A stretch of 12,241 nt of DNA, taken from NCBI GenBank assembly GCA_938048505.1, contig CALIUX010000135.1, positions 1 to 12,241 of the forward strand, read 5' to 3'. Below the pieces are notes generated by a model. It was given only the letters and a program-made list of their open reading frames with translations. It was not told where the DNA came from and searched no databases. This document shows, piece by piece, positions 1,187-12,241 of the stretch; position 1 is the first letter of the stretch, and the number at the start of each line of letters is the position of its first letter. Source of the DNA: an uncultured Pseudomonadales bacterium (GTDB taxonomy: Bacteria; Pseudomonadota; Gammaproteobacteria; Pseudomonadales; Cellvibrionaceae). The position numbers and the translations under genes are program-made.

Positions 1187-3196
1187 ACTCGTAGTCGAAA
1201 TGGTTGTGATAAGTTCGATCAGTCGAGCCCGTTCTTTGGATGATAGTTGATTTGGTGGCTTTATTTTGAGTTTGTCGATCTCATTTTGGCGCTTAAGCGC
1301 CTGTGTTTGCTGGGTGATTTTGGCAAAAGCATCGATCAGCTCTTGTCGATCGTTATACCCTTTTGAACGTTTGGCTAAGCTCAAGAGTTGGTTATTAACC
1401 CGCTCAATCAAAAGATTTTGAGCCTGCGTGCCAAAGCGGCCACCCCATGCGCCTATGATGTTGACAAGACTAGGCGCTTCGCGTTCTTTAAGATAAATAA
1501 ATATTTGCTCAAGTTCTTGCGCTTCTTCGCTCTCTAGCATGTCGGGCAGAGTTGTTTCATGCGCCAGCGCTGGATTTTCTAGCAGGAGTGCAATGGCAAG
1601 ATCGATAGGCCCTTGCTGTAGGTTGTTTCTTTTTTCAGTCGGGGTTGCTTGATCAAGCGTGATTTCATTTTGCTGAGGGCTATTTCTTTCTATTGCAGAG
1701 GCTGTCTCGGCCCCAAAGCTTGCTTCCGCTTCAAAAGCGTTCTGGGTTGAAGGGGGCGTGAATGAGCTGTTTTGTTGCGATGCTTGAGCGGGCGGGGCGC
1801 TAGAATACTGTTCGCTGGGTTGCTCTGCTTTAGCTTCTGGCGCCAATCGTGGCGCGGGTTCGCTGATCAGCTCCTGTAAAATCTCTTGGTTTAACCCCGT
1901 GCGCTGAGCAAGCAGTTCGAACATGAGTTCGCGGTATACGCTCTTGGGGAGTTTGTGTAGCAGTGGCGCGGCCAGCTTACTCAGGCGTGCTTTGCCACTC
2001 ATGGTTTGAATGTCTAGCCCTTCGCTGAGTGCACTAAAAAAGAACTCTTCGAGTGGTGTGCCGCGTTTAATGAGTTCATTAAAGCGTTCATGGCCAATTT
2101 GTCTGATGAGTGTATCGGGGTCTTGGCCTTCAGGTAAAAATAAAAACTTAATTTGGTAGCCATCTACCATCACTGGCAAGCTGTTTTCGAGTGCGCGTTT
2201 TGCGGCAGTACGACCAGCTTTGTCGCCATCAAAACAAAAAACAACGGTGTTGGTGTATTTGAATGCAAGCTTAAGGTGTTCTTCGCCACAGGCTGTGCCT
2301 AATGTAGCAACGGCATTGCGAATACCGTATTGCGCCAGAGCAATAACATCCATATACCCCTCAACCACCAGCAAGCTGGTTAGTTCCCGATGGGCTTGCC
2401 TTGCTTGATAAAGCCCGTAAAGCTCTTTGCCTTTATAAAATACGGGTGTTTCAGGCGAGTTAAGGTACTTGGGGCCAGAGCCTTTGATCTTTTTGCCGTC
2501 TGGCCCTACGCGATTCTCTTCGCCTAGAACACGTCCGCCAAAACCGATGGTGCGCCCGCGAATATCCAGTATAGGGAACATAATGCGCTGCCGAAAACGG
2601 TCGTAGCGCTTATTGTCTTCTTCGTGTTCGATCACCATGCCGGTGGTGGTCAGTGCTTTGCGGTCGGCTGCGTCGGTACCGAGTTTGGTGAGTAGGTTGT
2701 CCCATCCTTTGGGTGCATAGCCCAGCTTGAAATCTTTGGCTATTTGGCCCGACAGCCCCCTTTCTTTTAAATATTTAATGGCTTTTTGGCGGTCGGGGTG
2801 TTCTTTGAGGTGGTCGATAAAGTAGGTGGCGCATTTATCTAAAAGCGCATAAAGGCTCTTGAAGTCTTGCTTGGGGCGCCCGTTACTTTTTTTGGGGTCT
2901 TCTTTTGGCACTTGCATACCGGCATTGCTTGCCAGCATTTCAATGGAGTCGACAAAGCTGACTTTATCGAAGTCCATAACAAAGCCAATGGCATTGCCCG
3001 TCGCGCCACAACCAAAGCAATAGTAAAACTGTTTATCTTGGCTAACTGTAAACGAAGGTGTTTTTTCGTTATGAAACGGGCAGCATGCTGAATAGTTCTT
3101 GCCCGTTTTTTTGAGCTTAACGCGTTTATCGACAACATCAACAATGTCGATTCGGTTAATCAAATCATCAATAAAGGGCTGTGGAATACGGCTCAT
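1184..3196 (-). CDS. dnaG: DNA primase DnaG
   Basis: Synthesises the RNA primers for chromosomal replication and is recruited by the replicative helicase DnaB. The ATG at 3196-3194 gives MSRIPQPFIDDLINRIDIVD, the conserved DnaG start, and a protein of 670 residues. The same frame is open back to a TTG at 3253, but that extension does not resemble the family. The N-terminal CHC2 zinc finger shows C39, H42, C60 and C63 (CPFHNEKTPSF, YYCFGCG). The TOPRIM catalytic core has E279 (VVEGYMDVIAL) and the metal-binding D323-G-D325 (CFDGDKAG). A Gln/Ser/Pro-rich linker at roughly residues 455-535 precedes the C-terminal helicase-binding domain. No clear Shine-Dalgarno is visible before the ATG. The gene lies between yqeY and rpoD in the canonical macromolecular-synthesis order. 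The stop codon TAG overlaps the rpoD promoter. Confidence 0.98.
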   Translation of the reverse strand: MSRIPQPFIDDLINRIDIVDVVDKRVKLKKTGKNYSACCPFHNEKTPSFTVSQDKQFYYCFGCGATGNAIGFVMDFDKVSFVDSIEMLASNAGMQVPKEDPKKSNGRPKQDFKSLYALLDKCATYFIDHLKEHPDRQKAIKYLKERGLSGQIAKDFKLGYAPKGWDNLLTKLGTDAADRKALTTTGMVIEHEEDNKRYDRFRQRIMFPILDIRGRTIGFGGRVLGEENRVGPDGKKIKGSGPKYLNSPETPVFYKGKELYGLYQARQAHRELTSLLVVEGYMDVIALAQYGIRNAVATLGTACGEEHLKLAFKYTNTVVFCFDGDKAGRTAAKRALENSLPVMVDGYQIKFLFLPEGQDPDTLIRQIGHERFNELIKRGTPLEEFFFSALSEGLDIQTMSGKARLSKLAAPLLHKLPKSVYRELMFELLAQRTGLNQEILQELISEPAPRLAPEAKAEQPSEQYSSAPPAQASQQNSSFTPPSTQNAFEAEASFGAETASAIERNSPQQNEITLDQATPTEKRNNLQQGPIDLAIALLLENPALAHETTLPDMLESEEAQELEQIFIYLKEREAPSLVNIIGAWGGRFGTQAQNLLIERVNNQLLSLAKRSKGYNDRQELIDAFAKITQQTQALKRQNEIDKLKIKPPNQLSSKERARLIELITTISTTS

Positions 3197-3485
3197 ATGC
3201 AGGGATGGCAGTTTGGGGTTGTAGCCGGCACATTGAAGTAGGGCGCTGGGCAATTACGCGCTTTGTGTTGCGCACGCGTTGAGCTTGGTGTGTTGATGAG
3301 TGTGTTAATAATACAGTGTAGCGAATTTACTGCTGAAGAAATACTATGCTGTCGAAAGTCTTAATGCTTTGCTAGTTTGTATATGCGCTTGGCTCAAATG
3401 GCTGCAGTGCAATCAATTGATAGAAGTATAAAGTTAAGCAGCAGATAAAAAGTGACAGCTAAATGTGGTAGCAAAAAATCGAGGT
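3197..3485 (-). other. 289-base non-coding gap between yqeY and dnaG
   Basis: No gene is recognisable here on either strand. The gap is longer than expected for tightly coupled genes, so dnaG may have a promoter of its own. The best -10-like element on the minus strand is TATTAT at 3313-3308, about 110 bases before the dnaG ATG. Its -35 region (TCAGCA) is poor. A run of six T residues on the minus strand follows the yqeY stop (about 3479-3474), but only a 3-bp stem precedes it, so it is not a convincing terminator. Confidence 0.5.
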
Positions 3486-3935
3486 TTAGCCTTGTAGAGC
3501 TGCCTTTATAAGCTTGCTTACTGCGCCCATATCAGCACGACCTTGCATCTTAGGCTTGAGTTGGCCCATCACTTTCCCCATGTCGCCCATGCCTTGGGCC
3601 TGAGTGGATGATATAGCCTCTTGGATAAGGGATTGTATTTCAGCTTCAGTCAGTGCCTGAGGAAGAAAGTCTTTAATAACACTGATTTCAAATGCTTCAA
3701 TGGTGGCAAGGTCATCACGACCTGCATCCTTATATTGCGTTTCGGCATCACGACGTTGTTTTGTCATTTTGTCGAGTATGACTAATACACGAGCATCATC
3801 AACTTCAATGCGTTCATCGACTTCAATGCGCTTGAACTCTGCTGTGATCATACGGAGCACACTTAAGCGCTCCTTCTCTTTTGCTCGCATTGCATCTTTG
3901 ACTGCAGAGGTAATCGTTTTTTTGATCTCACTCAT
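3486..3935 (-). CDS. yqeY: GatB/YqeY domain protein
   Basis: A 149-residue soluble protein of the GatB/YqeY family, the normal length. The family resembles the tRNA-binding tail domain of the GatB subunit of the Glu-tRNA(Gln)/Asp-tRNA(Asn) amidotransferase, but free-standing YqeY proteins have no established reaction. Family marks are an N-terminal helical part with LSVLRMITAEFKRIEVDER and KMTKQRRDAETQY, and the C-terminal motif GDMGKVMGQLKPKMQGRADM followed by GAVSKLIK. The ATG at 3935-3933 gives the usual start; a weak GGA/AAG-type Shine-Dalgarno lies upstream. The position between rpsU and dnaG is the common one in Pseudomonas-like gammaproteobacteria and suggests cotranscription with rpsU, although a stem-loop sits in the 160-base gap. 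Confidence 0.93.
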   Translation of the reverse strand: MSEIKKTITSAVKDAMRAKEKERLSVLRMITAEFKRIEVDERIEVDDARVLVILDKMTKQRRDAETQYKDAGRDDLATIEAFEISVIKDFLPQALTEAEIQSLIQEAISSTQAQGMGDMGKVMGQLKPKMQGRADMGAVSKLIKAALQG

Positions 3936-4000
3936 ATTCGCTTATCCGGTTAGGGGTCGATATCAATCAAGACGTAATTGTTTACGGCAAAATAGAACTT

Positions 4001-4022
4001 GGCTAGCGCTGATTCGCTAGCC
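4001..4022 (-). other. Stem-loop in the rpsU-yqeY intergenic region
   Basis: A perfect inverted repeat, GGCTAGCG - 6 bases - CGCTAGCC, lies about 75 bases after the rpsU stop and 66 bases before yqeY. On the minus strand it is followed by AAGTTCTATTTTG, with no proper U tract, so it is not a classical intrinsic terminator. An RNA-processing site, an attenuator or a 3'-end stabiliser of the very abundant rpsU mRNA would fit, by analogy with processing and termination signals known between rpsU and dnaG in E. coli. The role is inference. Confidence 0.5.
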
Positions 4023-4095
4023 GTCTAACGCATTATGCTTTAGTGTGCTTACGCTTTATTTATATTGTGCAAGCGTTACAACTAAAGAAAAGCGA

Positions 4096-4311
4096 TTAAT
4101 ACATGCGTTGGAATTTACGGTTCTCACGAGAAACTTTTTTGGCGTGACGCTTAACGGCAGCAGCGGCTTTACGCTTACGTACAGTAGTGGGCTTCTCATA
4201 GCACTCACGGCGACGAACTTCTGCTAAAACACCTGCTTTTTCGCAAGAGCGCTTAAAGCGACGAAGAGCAATATCGAAGGGCTCGTTTTCTTTCAGTTTT
4301 ACTGAAGGCAT
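4096..4311 (-). CDS. rpsU: 30S ribosomal protein bS21
   Basis: Small basic protein of the 30S subunit that sits near the anti-Shine-Dalgarno end of 16S rRNA and aids mRNA binding during initiation. The 71-residue product begins [20 protein letters not shown], the diagnostic bS21 start, has [21 protein letters not shown] in the middle and a Lys/Arg-rich tail ending in NRKFQRMY. The length equals the family norm. AGG with a 7-base spacer before the ATG (4311-4309) is a good ribosome binding site. It is the first gene of the minus-strand cluster rpsU-yqeY-dnaG-rpoD and is divergent from tsaD. Its predicted leader is long (about 125 bases) and structured. Confidence 0.98.
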
Positions 4312-6615: not shown

Positions 6616-6921
6616 CCTGTGCTCCAAACCCTGACTGAGTTCGTATTCTTTACTCATTGTACTCTGGCGAGTTGTAATAGAGTGTAATATATCCGCTTAA
6701 TAGGCCCTTTTGAGGCGAGTAGAACACTTTTCATCAGTAAGCAAGGTGATTTTGCTGAATTTAATAGTAATATATGTCACCGCAATCATTGATCGCGTAC
6801 TTTAAGCTTAATTCTGACCCATTAGTCAGGTCTTACATGAGATAATGATGGCTAGATGAATATGTCTAGCGTGACCTAGCAAAGACCTTGCTGAGTACCC
6901 TCTTTATCTGAATGAAAAAGG

Positions 6922-7027
6922 TATAATCCTAGTCGGTATTTAGTCACAACCGTTTTATGGATTAGGTCAATCACTCATACATAGAAGCGTTTATTTTAAT
7001 AAAAACGTTTTAAATGAGAGGTTTTTT
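6922..7027 (+). ncRNA. Candidate short leader or small RNA upstream of the coiled-coil gene
   Basis: A perfect -10 box TATAAT (6922-6927) is followed by an imperfect hairpin: outer arms CTCAT (6974-6978) and ATGAG (7014-7018), inner CGTTT/AAACG. T residues follow at 7022-7027. Transcripts starting near 6934 could end near 7027 (about 95 bases) or read through into the gene at 7096. No -35 match stands 16-18 bases upstream of the -10. The stems are short and AT-rich, so the call is tentative. Confidence 0.22.
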
Positions 7028-7095
7028 GCGAATGCTGAGTTGGGTGGAGTCGTTCCTTAGCTCTTAAATACTTTTTTACTAGTTATAAAATCATT

Positions 7096-8148
7096 ATGGA
7101 AAATACTTACAAATCACTCTTAATCGTTGCTTTTAGTTTACTGTTAGCTTCACCTGCATGGGCTCAAAATAGCTCAATTAGCCAAGAAGTTGCTAAAAAA
7201 GAACAGCAAGTTGCTGCAATTCAAAGTGAAATGGCCTCAGTCTCGCGCAAGGCAAATGCTTCGCAAGCTAAACTTGACGCTTATAATGCCGATATAGAGA
7301 AAAAGAAACAGGCTCTTGCAAAAGCTAAAGCTAATTACGCAAAAGCGCCAACCCCAGAGGGTGAGCAATTTGTTAATAATGCAGCAAAGCGCGTTGAGCT
7401 AGCTGAGTTAGGTTTACAGTCTCGTGTTTCAGCTGTATCGCGGTTGCGCACAAAAGAAGCAGAATTGAATTCTCGTCTTGCAACGGTTAACAAAGAAATT
7501 TCTCGCCTGAATAACCGTGTACAGAGCCAGCAGGTTGCAGCGCGTGTTAAGCAAAGAACTGACAACCTCAAAACCGAAATGGCACAGACAACAGGCGTAC
7601 TTGAACAGCGATTGGCTGCTTTGGAGCGCGAAAATAATCGTTTGCGCCAAGTGGCAGAAGCAGAAGCTATTCGGCGCCAGCAGGCTGACCGGCAAGCGGC
7701 ACAAGCTCTTACTGCTCAAAAACAGCAGGCCCTAGCTGAAGAGCTTGCCGAAGAGAAAGCAGCTAAAGAGGCAATGATTTTGAAGTCAGACCCCAATAGC
7801 TTATCGCCTAAAGAGCGTGCTACTGCTGAGATGGCACGCTTACAAAGCATACTTGCATCTTCTCAAGGTGCTACAGCACCAGCGAAGAAACTAAGCTTAA
7901 GAAGTGAGCGTGGCTTCAATTTTGGTCGCTTTGAATATTTGGGTGCGAATCAGTATCGTATTGATATTGTTGTGGAGAATGCCACTGCTCGTTACCGTGT
8001 TGGTAATAAAGGCTATCGTGTGAAAGTGAGCGAAGCGAACCTTGGGCAAGAATTTATCTTTCTGTACGATCTGAGAGATAATGACAACCCGCGTTTGGTT
8101 GCCTTTGAAAAAGCACTGGTTGACGAGTCGAACTTGGCTGCAGAGTAG
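7096..8148 (+). CDS. Secreted (periplasmic) coiled-coil protein of unknown function
   Basis: I do not recognise the family. The 350-residue product begins with a clear Sec signal peptide: K6, the hydrophobic stretch SLLIVAFSLLLASP and the cleavage motif AWA|Q after residue 23. No lipobox cysteine is present, so a soluble periplasmic location is expected. Residues about 25-245 are almost entirely Ala/Gln/Glu/Lys/Arg-rich heptad-like helix (long coiled coil, with a break near APTPEGEQF). A proline-containing linker follows, then a compact C-terminal domain (about 265-345) rich in aromatic residues and beta-type stretches (FGRFEYLGANQYRIDIVVEN). The architecture resembles periplasmic scaffolds such as YbgF/EnvC-like proteins, but no domain of those families is identifiable. 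It is monocistronic, lacks a visible Shine-Dalgarno, and ends at a strong palindromic terminator. Confidence 0.8.
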   Translation: MENTYKSLLIVAFSLLLASPAWAQNSSISQEVAKKEQQVAAIQSEMASVSRKANASQAKLDAYNADIEKKKQALAKAKANYAKAPTPEGEQFVNNAAKRVELAELGLQSRVSAVSRLRTKEAELNSRLATVNKEISRLNNRVQSQQVAARVKQRTDNLKTEMAQTTGVLEQRLAALERENNRLRQVAEAEAIRRQQADRQAAQALTAQKQQALAEELAEEKAAKEAMILKSDPNSLSPKERATAEMARLQSILASSQGATAPAKKLSLRSERGFNFGRFEYLGANQYRIDIVVENATARYRVGNKGYRVKVSEANLGQEFIFLYDLRDNDNPRLVAFEKALVDESNLAAE

Positions 8149-9203: not shown

Positions 9204-11897
9204 ATGACTCTACCTTCTGAATCAGCTAACCGTTCACATGCCTCTATAGAAGGTAAACCTGCCACTTTACCGATTCATGCTTGCTTAGATGAATTGGCAG
9301 AAGCGCTGCTACAGCGCGATGAAGTCGTATTGCAAGCGCCGCCAGGTGCGGGTAAAACAACGCAGATCCCTTTGATGCTGCTCAATCAGCCGTGGCTTGG
9401 TCAGCAAAAAATTATTGTATTGGAGCCAAGGCGCGTTGCGGCATTAAATGCGGCAACGCGAATGGCAGAGATGCTGGGTGAACCCGTTGGTCAAACAGTG
9501 GGCTATCGTATGCGTGGCGCGACCAAAATTGGGCCCCGCACACAAATAGAAGTGATTACTGAAGGCTTGCTCACGCGTAAGCTGCAAGAAGACCCTGAAT
9601 TAACTGGGGTTGGTATTGTGGTGTTTGATGAATTTCATGAGCGTTCTATTAACACCGATACTGGGCTAGCATTGTGTCTGCAGGCTCGTGAGGTTTTTCG
9701 TGAGCAGGCGTTAAAGCTCTTGGTGATGTCTGCCACCCTTGATGGTCACTCGGTGGCTGAGCTGCTGGATAATGCCCCAATGGTTACCAGTGAGGGGCGT
9801 GCTTTCCCTGTTGAGTGTCATTATTTAAGCCAGCCTTTAAAGAAAAATACGCTGCTAATAGAGCAAGTGACCAAAACTGTTTTGCATGCCCTTGAAAAAG
9901 AGCCAGGTGATGCACTCGTCTTTTTACCGGGGTTAAGCGAAATTAATCGCGCCTATGCCATTCTGAGTTCAGCTCTGCCCGATCATATCCAATGCCATAC
10001 TCTGCATGGCGGTTTGTCACTCGCAGACCAAAAAGCCAGTTTGGTGCCCAGCCCAACTGGGCAGCGTAAAGTGGTGCTATCGACCGATATCGCTGAAACG
10101 AGTCTTACAATTCAGGGTGTCAGAATTGTTGTGGATGCAGGTTTGGTTCGCTCGCCCATCTTCGATCCAAATACAGGATTAACCCGCTTACAGACTACCG
10201 GCATCAGTTTGGCTAGCGCAGAACAGCGAGCTGGACGGGCGGGTCGTTTAGAATCTGGTTGTTGCTATCGATTATGGACTGAAGCGCAACACCGCCAAAA
10301 AATTGCGCATGCGGCGCCTGAAATTACTTGCTCAGACCTCATGCCATTAGCGATGACATTACTGTCATGGGGGGCGCAGCATTTTGATGAGCTGGCTTGG
10401 TTAACACCGCCTAAAGCGTCGAACTGGGATCAAGCGCTTGATGCATTACGATCGCTTGGTGCTTTGAATGAAAAAGGTGAGCTGACCAATGAGGGAACGA
10501 ATCTATCCGTTTTTCCTTGCCACCCACGCGTGGCAAAACTGTTATGTGTGGCACATGCAAATCACTTTGCCAATACAGGGTGTTTAGTGGCAGCCGTCTT
10601 AAGCGAAAAGGCGCCACGGGGTTTATCAGCTGACCTGACGCAAACGGTAGCGAGGCTTTTGGCACACGATCCATCACTCCCTAAAAGCTGGTGCAAACGT
10701 ACCATGTCTTTGGCAAAGCAATTTCAAGCCTTGTTGAACGCAGTGTATAAGCATGACAACAGCATAAACAGCCACTCTACTATTCAAATCAATAAGCAGG
10801 CAAGTGGAAATCATGCGAGCGGAAATATTGATGATATTGCTTGGGCGATGGCTAAAGCCTTCCCCGAACATATTGCTAAGAGGCATGCAGCACAAGATGG
10901 CGTAGCGGTTTTTAAGCTCGCGAATGGGCGAGCAGCGAATCTGGATATGTCAGAACCGCTAGCGCATCATCAATGGATCGTTGTGGCGGATGCCGGTGGC
11001 CATGCGGGTTCAAAACAAGACCGTATCTTTTTAGGTGCTCCACTCGATGAGACGGCTTTTAATTCGGTATTGGCCGATAAAGTCACGCGTCGTGTTATCG
11101 CGCAATGGGATGAGCAAAAGCAACGCTTTATTGCCGAGGCGCAGCATTGCATTGGTAAACTTATTTACGCTTCGGAGCCTGTACGTGACCTGCCACCGCA
11201 TATCAAAGCGGCTGCACTAACAGAATTAATACGGCAAAAAGGGTTATCAATACTGGATTGGAATGATGCGGTTCAGCAGTTGTGTGCCAAAGTGCGCTAT
11301 TTGCGCGAACGTGATGATGAAACGTGGCCTGACCTAACGCATAAAGGGTTATTGAATCGTTTGGAAGAATGGCTGATGCCAGCGCTCGAAGATAAAGCCA
11401 CACCATCGGTAAATGTGTTGAGCGATTTTAAAAAAATCGATATTTACCCATTAATTCTTCAGCAATTACCTTGGCCATTGCCGCAGCAATTAAAAACGCT
11501 ATTGCCCGACCGCATCTCGGTACCAAGTGGTCGGGAAGTGGCGATTGATTACACTCAAGAGCCGCCGGTACTGGCCGTAAAGTTACAGGAAATGTTTGGC
11601 TGCCAAACAACCCCAGCGGTTATGAGGGGGGAGTTAAAGCTGATGTTACATTTATTGTCACCGGCCAAACGGCCTCTGCAAGTGACACAAGACCTCAGTG
11701 CATTTTGGCAAAATGGTTACGATAGCGTGAAAAAAGAAATGCGAGGCCGCTACCCTAAACTCACAGGAACCCTAGGGGGTTGCCAGGCTACAGGAATCGT
11801 GAAAGTGTTGACAAAACCAACACGAGGATTCCGAAATGGATATTACAAAGCAGCAACGAATAACGATTATTCCTGTCATCAAACATGCCACTGCTGA
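9204..11897 (+). CDS. hrpB: ATP-dependent helicase HrpB with replaced C-terminal tail
   Basis: DEAH/RHA-type helicase of the HrpB family, cellular role poorly defined. Visible motifs: Walker A PPGAGKTT (46-53), DEFHERS (Walker B, 142-148), SAT (176-178), TDIAETSLTIQG (about 293-304) and QRAGRAGR (about 340-347), then the HrpB-specific C-terminal region. The ATG at 9204 is preferred because helicase similarity begins soon after; the frame is open back to a TTG at 9057, but that stretch has no family resemblance. No Shine-Dalgarno is evident. Normal HrpB proteins end about 20 residues after a K/R-GRYPKH motif. Here the sequence is normal to RGRYPK (residue 852, base 11759), and the remaining 45 residues (TGTLGGCQATG onward, ending NDYSCHQTCHC) are foreign. 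They come from an inserted element and overlap its first gene by 62 bases. The helicase core is intact, so partial function is possible. Confidence 0.92.
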   Translation: MTLPSESANRSHASIEGKPATLPIHACLDELAEALLQRDEVVLQAPPGAGKTTQIPLMLLNQPWLGQQKIIVLEPRRVAALNAATRMAEMLGEPVGQTVGYRMRGATKIGPRTQIEVITEGLLTRKLQEDPELTGVGIVVFDEFHERSINTDTGLALCLQAREVFREQALKLLVMSATLDGHSVAELLDNAPMVTSEGRAFPVECHYLSQPLKKNTLLIEQVTKTVLHALEKEPGDALVFLPGLSEINRAYAILSSALPDHIQCHTLHGGLSLADQKASLVPSPTGQRKVVLSTDIAETSLTIQGVRIVVDAGLVRSPIFDPNTGLTRLQTTGISLASAEQRAGRAGRLESGCCYRLWTEAQHRQKIAHAAPEITCSDLMPLAMTLLSWGAQHFDELAWLTPPKASNWDQALDALRSLGALNEKGELTNEGTNLSVFPCHPRVAKLLCVAHANHFANTGCLVAAVLSEKAPRGLSADLTQTVARLLAHDPSLPKSWCKRTMSLAKQFQALLNAVYKHDNSINSHSTIQINKQASGNHASGNIDDIAWAMAKAFPEHIAKRHAAQDGVAVFKLANGRAANLDMSEPLAHHQWIVVADAGGHAGSKQDRIFLGAPLDETAFNSVLADKVTRRVIAQWDEQKQRFIAEAQHCIGKLIYASEPVRDLPPHIKAAALTELIRQKGLSILDWNDAVQQLCAKVRYLRERDDETWPDLTHKGLLNRLEEWLMPALEDKATPSVNVLSDFKKIDIYPLILQQLPWPLPQQLKTLLPDRISVPSGREVAIDYTQEPPVLAVKLQEMFGCQTTPAVMRGELKLMLHLLSPAKRPLQVTQDLSAFWQNGYDSVKKEMRGRYPKLTGTLGGCQATGIVKVLTKPTRGFRNGYYKAATNNDYSCHQTCHC
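11763..11796. repeat. Short repeats and palindrome at the element terminus
   Basis: ACAGGAA occurs at 11763-11769 and 11790-11796 (27 bases apart). Between them lies AACCCTAGGGGGTT (11768-11781), with the 8-bp palindrome CCCTAGGG. ACCCTA also occurs on both sides of the presumed junction (11752-11757, 11769-11774). Such sites could be arm or core binding sites for the recombinase; this is inference. Confidence 0.4.
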
Positions 11898-12241
11898 CAT
11901 TGCAGTAACACATACACCTGAATTCCATGCCCCTTGCACGGAAAGCGATTCCCCTCCCGACAAGCTAAGCCTCATTCAAATCGATCCCTTTTTGACCTCA
12001 GAGCAGTCTGAGGGGGATAGGATTTATAACTTCCCATTTCTTCACAACGAAGACCTAAGCCCTTGGGAGGATGGAAATTTGTATATTTGGCACCTAGCTT
12101 CAACCCCCAAATACCTCAACAAATCATCATCCGGACTGAGAAGCCTCGCATCCAGACTCATGGACTTCAAAATATATTGTGATTCTGAAGAAATCGATTA
12201 TTTAGATTTAAGTGGGCGACGGACTTTTAACAGGCCCCCAT
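11836..12241 (+). CDS. Putative tyrosine-type site-specific recombinase, N-terminal part
   Basis: 135 codons are open from the ATG at 11836 and run off the right edge. GAGGA seven bases upstream is a good ribosome binding site. The product starts MDITKQQRITIIPVIKHATA. Residues about 50-85 read IDPFLTSEQ...YNFPFLHNEDLSPWEDGNLYIWHL, and later LASRLMDFKIYCDSEEIDYLDLSGRR...NRPP. The PFL/PW-x-x-x-NLY start, a helical segment and a (I/V)DY-LD-x-SGRR-x-x-x-RP end resemble the SAM-like core-binding domain that precedes the catalytic domain in some island tyrosine recombinases. The catalytic R-H-R-Y residues are beyond the window, so activity cannot be judged. All seven arginine codons are AGA, AGG, CGA or CGG, whereas neighbours mainly use CGT/CGC, a sign of transfer. 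A non-recombinase protein is still possible. Confidence 0.55.
   Translation, partial: MDITKQQRITIIPVIKHATADIAVTHTPEFHAPCTESDSPPDKLSLIQIDPFLTSEQSEGDRIYNFPFLHNEDLSPWEDGNLYIWHLASTPKYLNKSSSGLRSLASRLMDFKIYCDSEEIDYLDLSGRRTFNRPP

Follow-up and report, generated by a model that had tools for sequence, protein, structure and literature searches.

An hrpB gene cut by the left end of a probable strand-biased circularizing integrative element in an uncultured Cellvibrionaceae bacterium

Background

Why does the helicase gene hrpB on contig CALIUX010000135.1, from an uncultured Pseudomonadales bacterium of the family Cellvibrionaceae (assembly GCA_938048505.1), depart from its family just before its expected end, and what is the DNA that follows the break? 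The window, which is the whole stretch of DNA analysed here, is the complete contig (C135) of 12,241 nucleotides, and it belongs to a genome that is 72.5% complete, with approximately 27% estimated to be missing. A preliminary description, made from the sequence alone, had proposed that an island is integrated inside the coding end of hrpB. We consider it highly probable that hrpB has been cut here by the left end of an element of the type known as strand-biased circularizing integrative elements (SEs), and that the clade to which this element belongs targets the end of hrpB.

Such a clade would recognise the conserved hrpB end. Its insertion would leave the hrpB hexamer at the attachment site attL, place a hexamer from the previous location at attR, and push the native hrpB tail approximately 9-27 kb away. 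In relatives, the damage to HrpB would be offset in one of two ways: the left end codes a short substitute C-terminus, or a complete spare hrpB is present. The mechanism is presumed to be of the copy-out type, and by analogy the element of the window may have the same remainder as those of its relatives. Passages of four publications were used for comparison (PMC5385486, PMC10214605, PMC9345347 and PMC8373256), and statements on published systems refer to those passages.

Results and discussion

The junction in the window

The host hrpB, encoding the ATP-dependent helicase HrpB, lies on the plus strand at 9204..11760 and is cut one base after the RYPK codons, with its native C-terminal tail gone. 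Its product matches positions 1-805 of the 825 positions of the TIGR01970 HrpB profile (E 3.4e-281) and also matches Pfam HrpB_C. The RGRYPK of the frame ends at base 11759, and 45 unrelated codons (LTGTLGG...) follow up to a stop at 11895-11897. Alignments of the window HrpB with 29 other loci end between query residue 852, the K of RYPK, and residue 866, mostly at 852-854, which bears out the earlier statement that the family match runs to RGRYPK and then switches. These 29 hrpB loci, drawn from the genus, family and order of the window, serve as controls, and all of them keep the native H-x-W-P tail after RYP[K/R].

Three features follow on the plus strand. The hexamer at 11755..11760, CTAAAC, is hrpB-like and, by analogy with relatives, is presumed to hold the crossover bases from hrpB (the attB side) at attL, although one end alone is no proof of this. 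The C at 11760 probably belongs to hrpB-derived DNA, because relatives retain the first base of the next His codon. Positions 11761..11835 hold the element's left terminus (motif C region) together with the intA leader, and include one TTGAC box at 11808; the matching stretch spans 81-190 bp in the six relatives measured. The new 45-residue C-terminus of HrpB is coded by element sequence at 11761..11897. ARAGORN found no tRNA or tmRNA gene in the window, and the integration at such a gene that serves to recognise integrative and conjugative or integrative and mobilizable elements was not seen.

The integrase gene intA, of a probable SE-type element, occupies 11836..12240 on the plus strand; the contig stops within it, and only the first 135 residues of the encoded tyrosine recombinase are present. 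Its ATG at 11836 lies 76 bases past the K codon, and the frame is open through all 135 visible residues. No match was found for it in Pfam (E 0.001), nor in NCBIfam, PADLOC and PHROGs (E 1). Eleven records of a plasmid collection match it, with a best E-value of 2e-11; nine of the 11 matches cover 96% of the frame length at 27-36% identity, and most of the 11 are annotated as "site-specific integrase" or "integrase". The integrase-like gene 76 bases on from the break, already pointed out in the preliminary description, is thus confirmed. In five of six plasmid regions, the integrase heads a run of four adjacent genes (approximately 490, 640, 680 and 140 residues); the fourth gene lacks annotation in the remaining region (L036). 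Phage records, viral contigs and a length-limited protein search yielded no integrase relative, and a scan of genome contigs with the window integrase alone confirmed none.

Relatives cut at the same codon

A scan with aligned integrase N-termini gave 32 loci with related integrases. At 22 of them the integrase is preceded by an hrpB gene broken at the codon seen in the window, the hosts including Pseudomonas, Stutzerimonas, Alteromonas, Pseudoalteromonas and Enterovibrio as well as metagenome-assembled genomes of Oleispira and Alteromonadaceae. A chimeric assembly is therefore unlikely, because the same hrpB codon joins the same kind of integrase in 22 other genomes. In a tree of 40 IntA N-termini, the window IntA clusters with those of L045, L046 and L049, all of which cut hrpB (local support 0.75; the order within the group is not resolved).

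Detached hrpB tails were found for 16 of the 22 cut loci, two of them (L045 and L063) seen directly. The tail pattern was searched in 18 genomes and 15 had a match: 11 with a detached tail (including L045 and L063), three with a complete hrpB, and one with chance matches only. Four hits were left out as non-hrpB tails (L081, L082, L089 and L092), and complete hrpB genes (L079, L080 and L083) were not counted. Further contigs add the detached tails of L046, L048, L066, L067 and L070, and no attR was found for L047, L050, L051, L056, L058 and L074. An integrated element with its own target preference, as suggested at the outset, is supported by the shared codon and by these displaced tails, the recovery of a detached hrpB end being the type of check that the preliminary description had put forward.

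Both ends lie on a single contig in ten elements, which measure 8.7-26.5 kb by arithmetic from their coordinates. Four are short (L045, 8.7 kb; L063, 9.1 kb; L066, 10.4 kb; L060, 10.7 kb) and six are longer (L065, 19.0 kb; L048, 25.4 kb; L070, 25.9 kb; L049, 26.0 kb; L067, 26.3 kb; L046, 26.5 kb). The hexamer preceding the element at attL fits the hrpB consensus CNAARC in 16 of 16 loci. At attR, 17 rows from 16 relatives hold 16 different hexamers, one with an N, between the element and the tail; 11 of these rows come from searches in which the last base was fixed as C, and three of the six from a looser search end in G or A. The varied attR hexamers and the hrpB hexamer at attL fit, at the level of sequence, the rule described for SEs, by which attB bases are found at attL and a 6-bp donor fingerprint at attR (PMC10214605). 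Imperfect inverted termini (C and C') were recognised by eye in some relatives, such as L067 (TATCACGTAAC versus TATCAGCTAAC), and are weak in others.

For L066, a second tail was found at 14.0 kb. Downstream of this locus, L150 carries two successive detached hrpB-like tails of differing sequence (13580 and 9932, minus strand), as if elements stood in tandem or one tail had been brought from a former host.

A four-gene cassette of SE type

The SEs carry the operon intA-tfp-intB-srap at the left end, and their recombination involves two tyrosine recombinases and two further proteins, short imperfect termini and a 6-bp spacer (PMC9345347, PMC10214605). The same order was found in ten relatives; the window holds only the N-terminus of intA. 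Profiles of coding sequences 1 to 4 (CDS1-4) from the ten relatives best match, among pAQU1 genes, the same-position genes of the SE on that plasmid, with E-values of 8.5e-13, 1.7e-6, 1.3e-18 and 5.3e-9. This SE was located by its four-gene layout beside blaGMA-1; it is named SE-Pda04Ya311, and strand-biased recombination has been demonstrated for it (PMC10214605). The catalytic motifs TGxR, HWLR and Y of CDS1 (IntA) are kept in all ten rows of relatives, and TGMR, HQFR and YY of CDS3 (IntB) in seven of seven. In CDS2 (Tfp) the first Arg is missing in L063 (TGAT; read in L063 only), and the C-terminal H...Y is kept in 10 of 10 rows.

Compared with the described elements SE-6283, SE-6945 and SE-Pda04Ya311, the relatives have their four core genes in the same order and homologous one to one, and they appear to share the 6-bp spacer, attB bases at attL, varied attR bases and the use of a few selected target genes. 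They differ in their target, hrpB, and in the substitute C-terminus coded by the left end of many members, which the SE passages do not describe. Two other groups resemble them in having several tyrosine recombinases. By description, the Tn554 family shares a 6-bp footprint as well, but has no counterpart of Tfp, and RIT elements differ in having three recombinases of 315-410 residues (PMC10214605).

Fate of HrpB: a donated tail or a second gene

The preliminary description held that the insertion took place without rebuilding the 3' end of hrpB. This is not generally true, since one group of elements provides a conserved substitute C-terminus and others are accompanied by a second complete hrpB. 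The new end of HrpB coded by the left end reads LFHKLDPWV[E/D]SLN at 13 loci of Pseudomonas and Stutzerimonas; four of six plasmid copies (L033, L035, L036 and L041), none of them in hrpB, keep this end. In the HrpB frame of the substitute tail LFHKLDPWVESLN, 12 changes are synonymous and 4 non-synonymous (p 5.6e-6, for an expected synonymous share of 21%), against 1 and 15 in either of the other two frames. The test covers 20 left ends (13 in cut hrpB and 7 elsewhere; 13 distinct), which were located with an 11-base seed; the seed positions were excluded from the count. The donated C-terminus is under coding constraint.

A second hrpB is present in 10 of 24 genomes examined. It follows srap directly in L047, L048 and L051, lies just inside attR in L046 and L049, and is found between the left end and intA in L067. 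For L050, L056 and L058 the second copies (L104, L105 and L106) are not placed in the element because they are on other contigs, and that of L105 appears to be in an ordinary chromosomal context; the tenth genome, that of L061, also has a second hrpB, but L061 is not a cut locus. Second and cut genes are 36-77% identical in five pairs, and the second copy ends in the H-x-W-P motif.

Comparison of 22 of the 24 genomes (L057 and L061, not being cut loci, stand outside it) gives one hrpB in 12 of 13 loci with the conserved tail and two in 8 of the 9 other cut loci (Fisher p 2.4e-4, uncorrected for relatedness). The exceptions are L050, which has both, and L045, with neither conserved tail nor second hrpB. 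We read tail donation and the spare hrpB as two alternative ways to spare the host, by which HrpB function would be restored. A published precedent is offered by SE-6283-like elements, which have bcp as their integration target and bring a bcp gene with them (PMC9345347).

Several further loci bear traces in or near hrpB. At 8187-8297 of L057, a Pseudoalteromonas hrpB end (HNWDLPDGHD...) starts like the substitute tail of L056 and lies 1.7 kb before the intA of another element of the same family, possibly as the scar of a former insertion. L072 has a second 5' hrpB fragment (6901-7275) directly upstream of its cut hrpB, perhaps debris of an earlier swap between spare and host copies. From position 9749 on, L071 and L072 share 4.9 kb at 99% identity, and their alignable host flanks are approximately 65-78% alike; the plasmid locus L041 has the same left end as both, but not in hrpB. 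The near-identical 4.9 kb and the common left end suggest recent spread, perhaps by plasmid.

Cargo

Twenty selected proteins were compared with PADLOC and ten with Pfam. PADLOC identified Gabija GajA and GajB in L046 and L048, GajA in L065, type I restriction-modification proteins in L049, two ThsB-like TIR proteins in L046, SspC in L070 and a candidate-defence exonuclease (PDC-S48) in L063. QatA was found on the P. gessardii contig with a second hrpB, whose membership in an element is not established. L066 encodes a reverse transcriptase domain, and the cargo is not limited to defence, because in L060 the gene for a solute-binding protein precedes genes that by eye resemble transporters. No PADLOC match was obtained for L145:5030-7723. 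The defence cargo that had been anticipated is therefore borne out for several relatives (Gabija, type I restriction-modification, SspC), but the copy in the window shows no cargo region.

At 17233-18617 of L063, within a delimited element of 9.1 kb, a 195-residue protein, by eye a membrane protein, overlaps a 266-residue protein. The pair is a candidate two-gene system; neither protein has a PADLOC match, and the larger has no Pfam match.

Alternative explanations

Several observations weigh against the reading of the window as an SE-type element targeted to hrpB. No cut hrpB precedes intA in 10 of the 32 loci (L052, L054, L055, L057, L059, L061, L062, L069, L073 and L075), so that similarity of IntA alone cannot fix the target. 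The substitute tail of the window is not conserved, is unlike that of the Pseudomonas elements and overlaps intA by 62 bp. Near this host related integrases are rare: 144 other relatives gave no match (the own genome being one of 145), and three of the 390 genomes searched in the order have one, namely the own and two others with weak matches. Because the window is the whole contig, the left end and 135 integrase residues are all of the element that is visible. The own genome, incomplete as it is, gave no tfp or intB match (searched with the L033 versions of Tfp and IntB and with a profile of IntB; an empty answer of this kind is weak evidence) and no detached hrpB tail; a looser tail pattern gave six one-mismatch matches against ten for the reversed control, none of them tail-like. 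As neither the right end nor the detached tail was found there, the island is inferred from one end. Finally, betaproteobacterial cassettes of the same gene order (L152 and L154) match the CDS1-4 profiles better than pAQU1 does, and a survey of SEs reports no Tfp homologs in Betaproteobacteria (PMC10214605), so that the SE label may be too narrow. L152 and L154 lie on two Paraburkholderia plasmids, and their four genes are homologous to the SE core; further betaproteobacterial matches exist.

These cassettes bear on the possibility that the element is not an SE but belongs to a sister kind with four recombination genes, the Genomic Islands with three Integrases (GInts, ginABCD), which, unlike SEs, are reported from Betaproteobacteria (PMC10214605). 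GInts, too, have a recombination operon of four genes at one end, bear imperfect repeats at their termini, insert site-specifically close to the ends of genes and vary in cargo (PMC5385486). They differ in the order of catalytic and non-catalytic recombinases, and SE and GInt proteins form separate clusters (PMC10214605). In GInts the products of the first two genes, ginA and ginB, are catalytic and that of the third, ginC, is without the first Arg (PMC5385486), whereas here CDS1 and CDS3 keep their motifs (TGMR and HQFR in seven of seven third genes) and CDS2 lacks the first Arg in L063. The pAQU1 SE matches gene for gene; on the other side, GInts were set apart by description only, no certain GInt sequence having been compared. 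We regard a GInt as unlikely, and an assignment to GInts by gene order was given up after the gene-by-gene comparison with the pAQU1 SE.

A dead remnant, in which an old insertion has largely lost its element and left only the left end and an intA fragment, is about as improbable. It would account for the missing tfp and intB in the own assembled genome, and a copy that looks decayed is known (L058, with broken intA and intB frames). The intA of the window, however, remains open as far as it can be read and merely reaches the contig end, and by estimate the assembly lacks over a quarter of the genome. It is hardly credible that the HrpB C-terminus simply diverged by vertical descent beside an unrelated downstream gene: three HrpBs from the same genus are only 53-56% identical to that of the window, but the H-x-W-P tail persists in all 29 controls, and the same cut occurs in 22 integrase relatives, with a displaced tail in 16.

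Neighbouring genes

In three relatives of the same genus, genes that look K+ channel-like and SUI1-like by eye lie 3' of hrpB; in the own genome they are on contig C300. There, at L040 (G000:C300) 2547-4285, the channel-like gene is adjoined by a gene that by eye is moaE-like, and not by an hrpB tail, so that gene order either differs locally in this species or was rearranged. The window also contains, at 7096-8148, a 350-residue frame that by eye is coiled-coil-like with a signal-peptide-like start.

Significance

The kind of element is already known, and what is little described is its target. In the passages compared, hrpB as an island target appears in one sentence only, on genomic islands of P. 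aeruginosa, which gives no element class, junction or gene content. Of the four sources cited for these islands, two do not contain the word "hrpB" in their main text, and neither "hrpB" nor "helicase" occurs in the main texts of PMC10214605 and PMC5385486, whose supplements may list hrpB.

More broadly, we tentatively propose, as a plausible reading that falls a little short of probable, a wide SE-type clade specialised on one hrpB codon, with two ways of sparing the host: a donated, non-homologous and selected C-terminus, or a full spare hrpB. Defence islands would then have in hrpB an insertion site that has received little description. The element of the window would be a deep-lying member of the clade, perhaps with a spare hrpB such as two of its three nearest relatives possess (L046 and L049, not L045). 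A one-line mention of islands in hrpB thus becomes a delimited clade of elements with a defined junction, and mobile defence islands can therefore be looked for by scanning hrpB ends. Under the SE rule, should it hold, the attR hexamer records the previous location of each element and would amount to a readable history of transposition. With the donated tail and the spare gene, the idea that an element compensates for the gene it breaks becomes testable.

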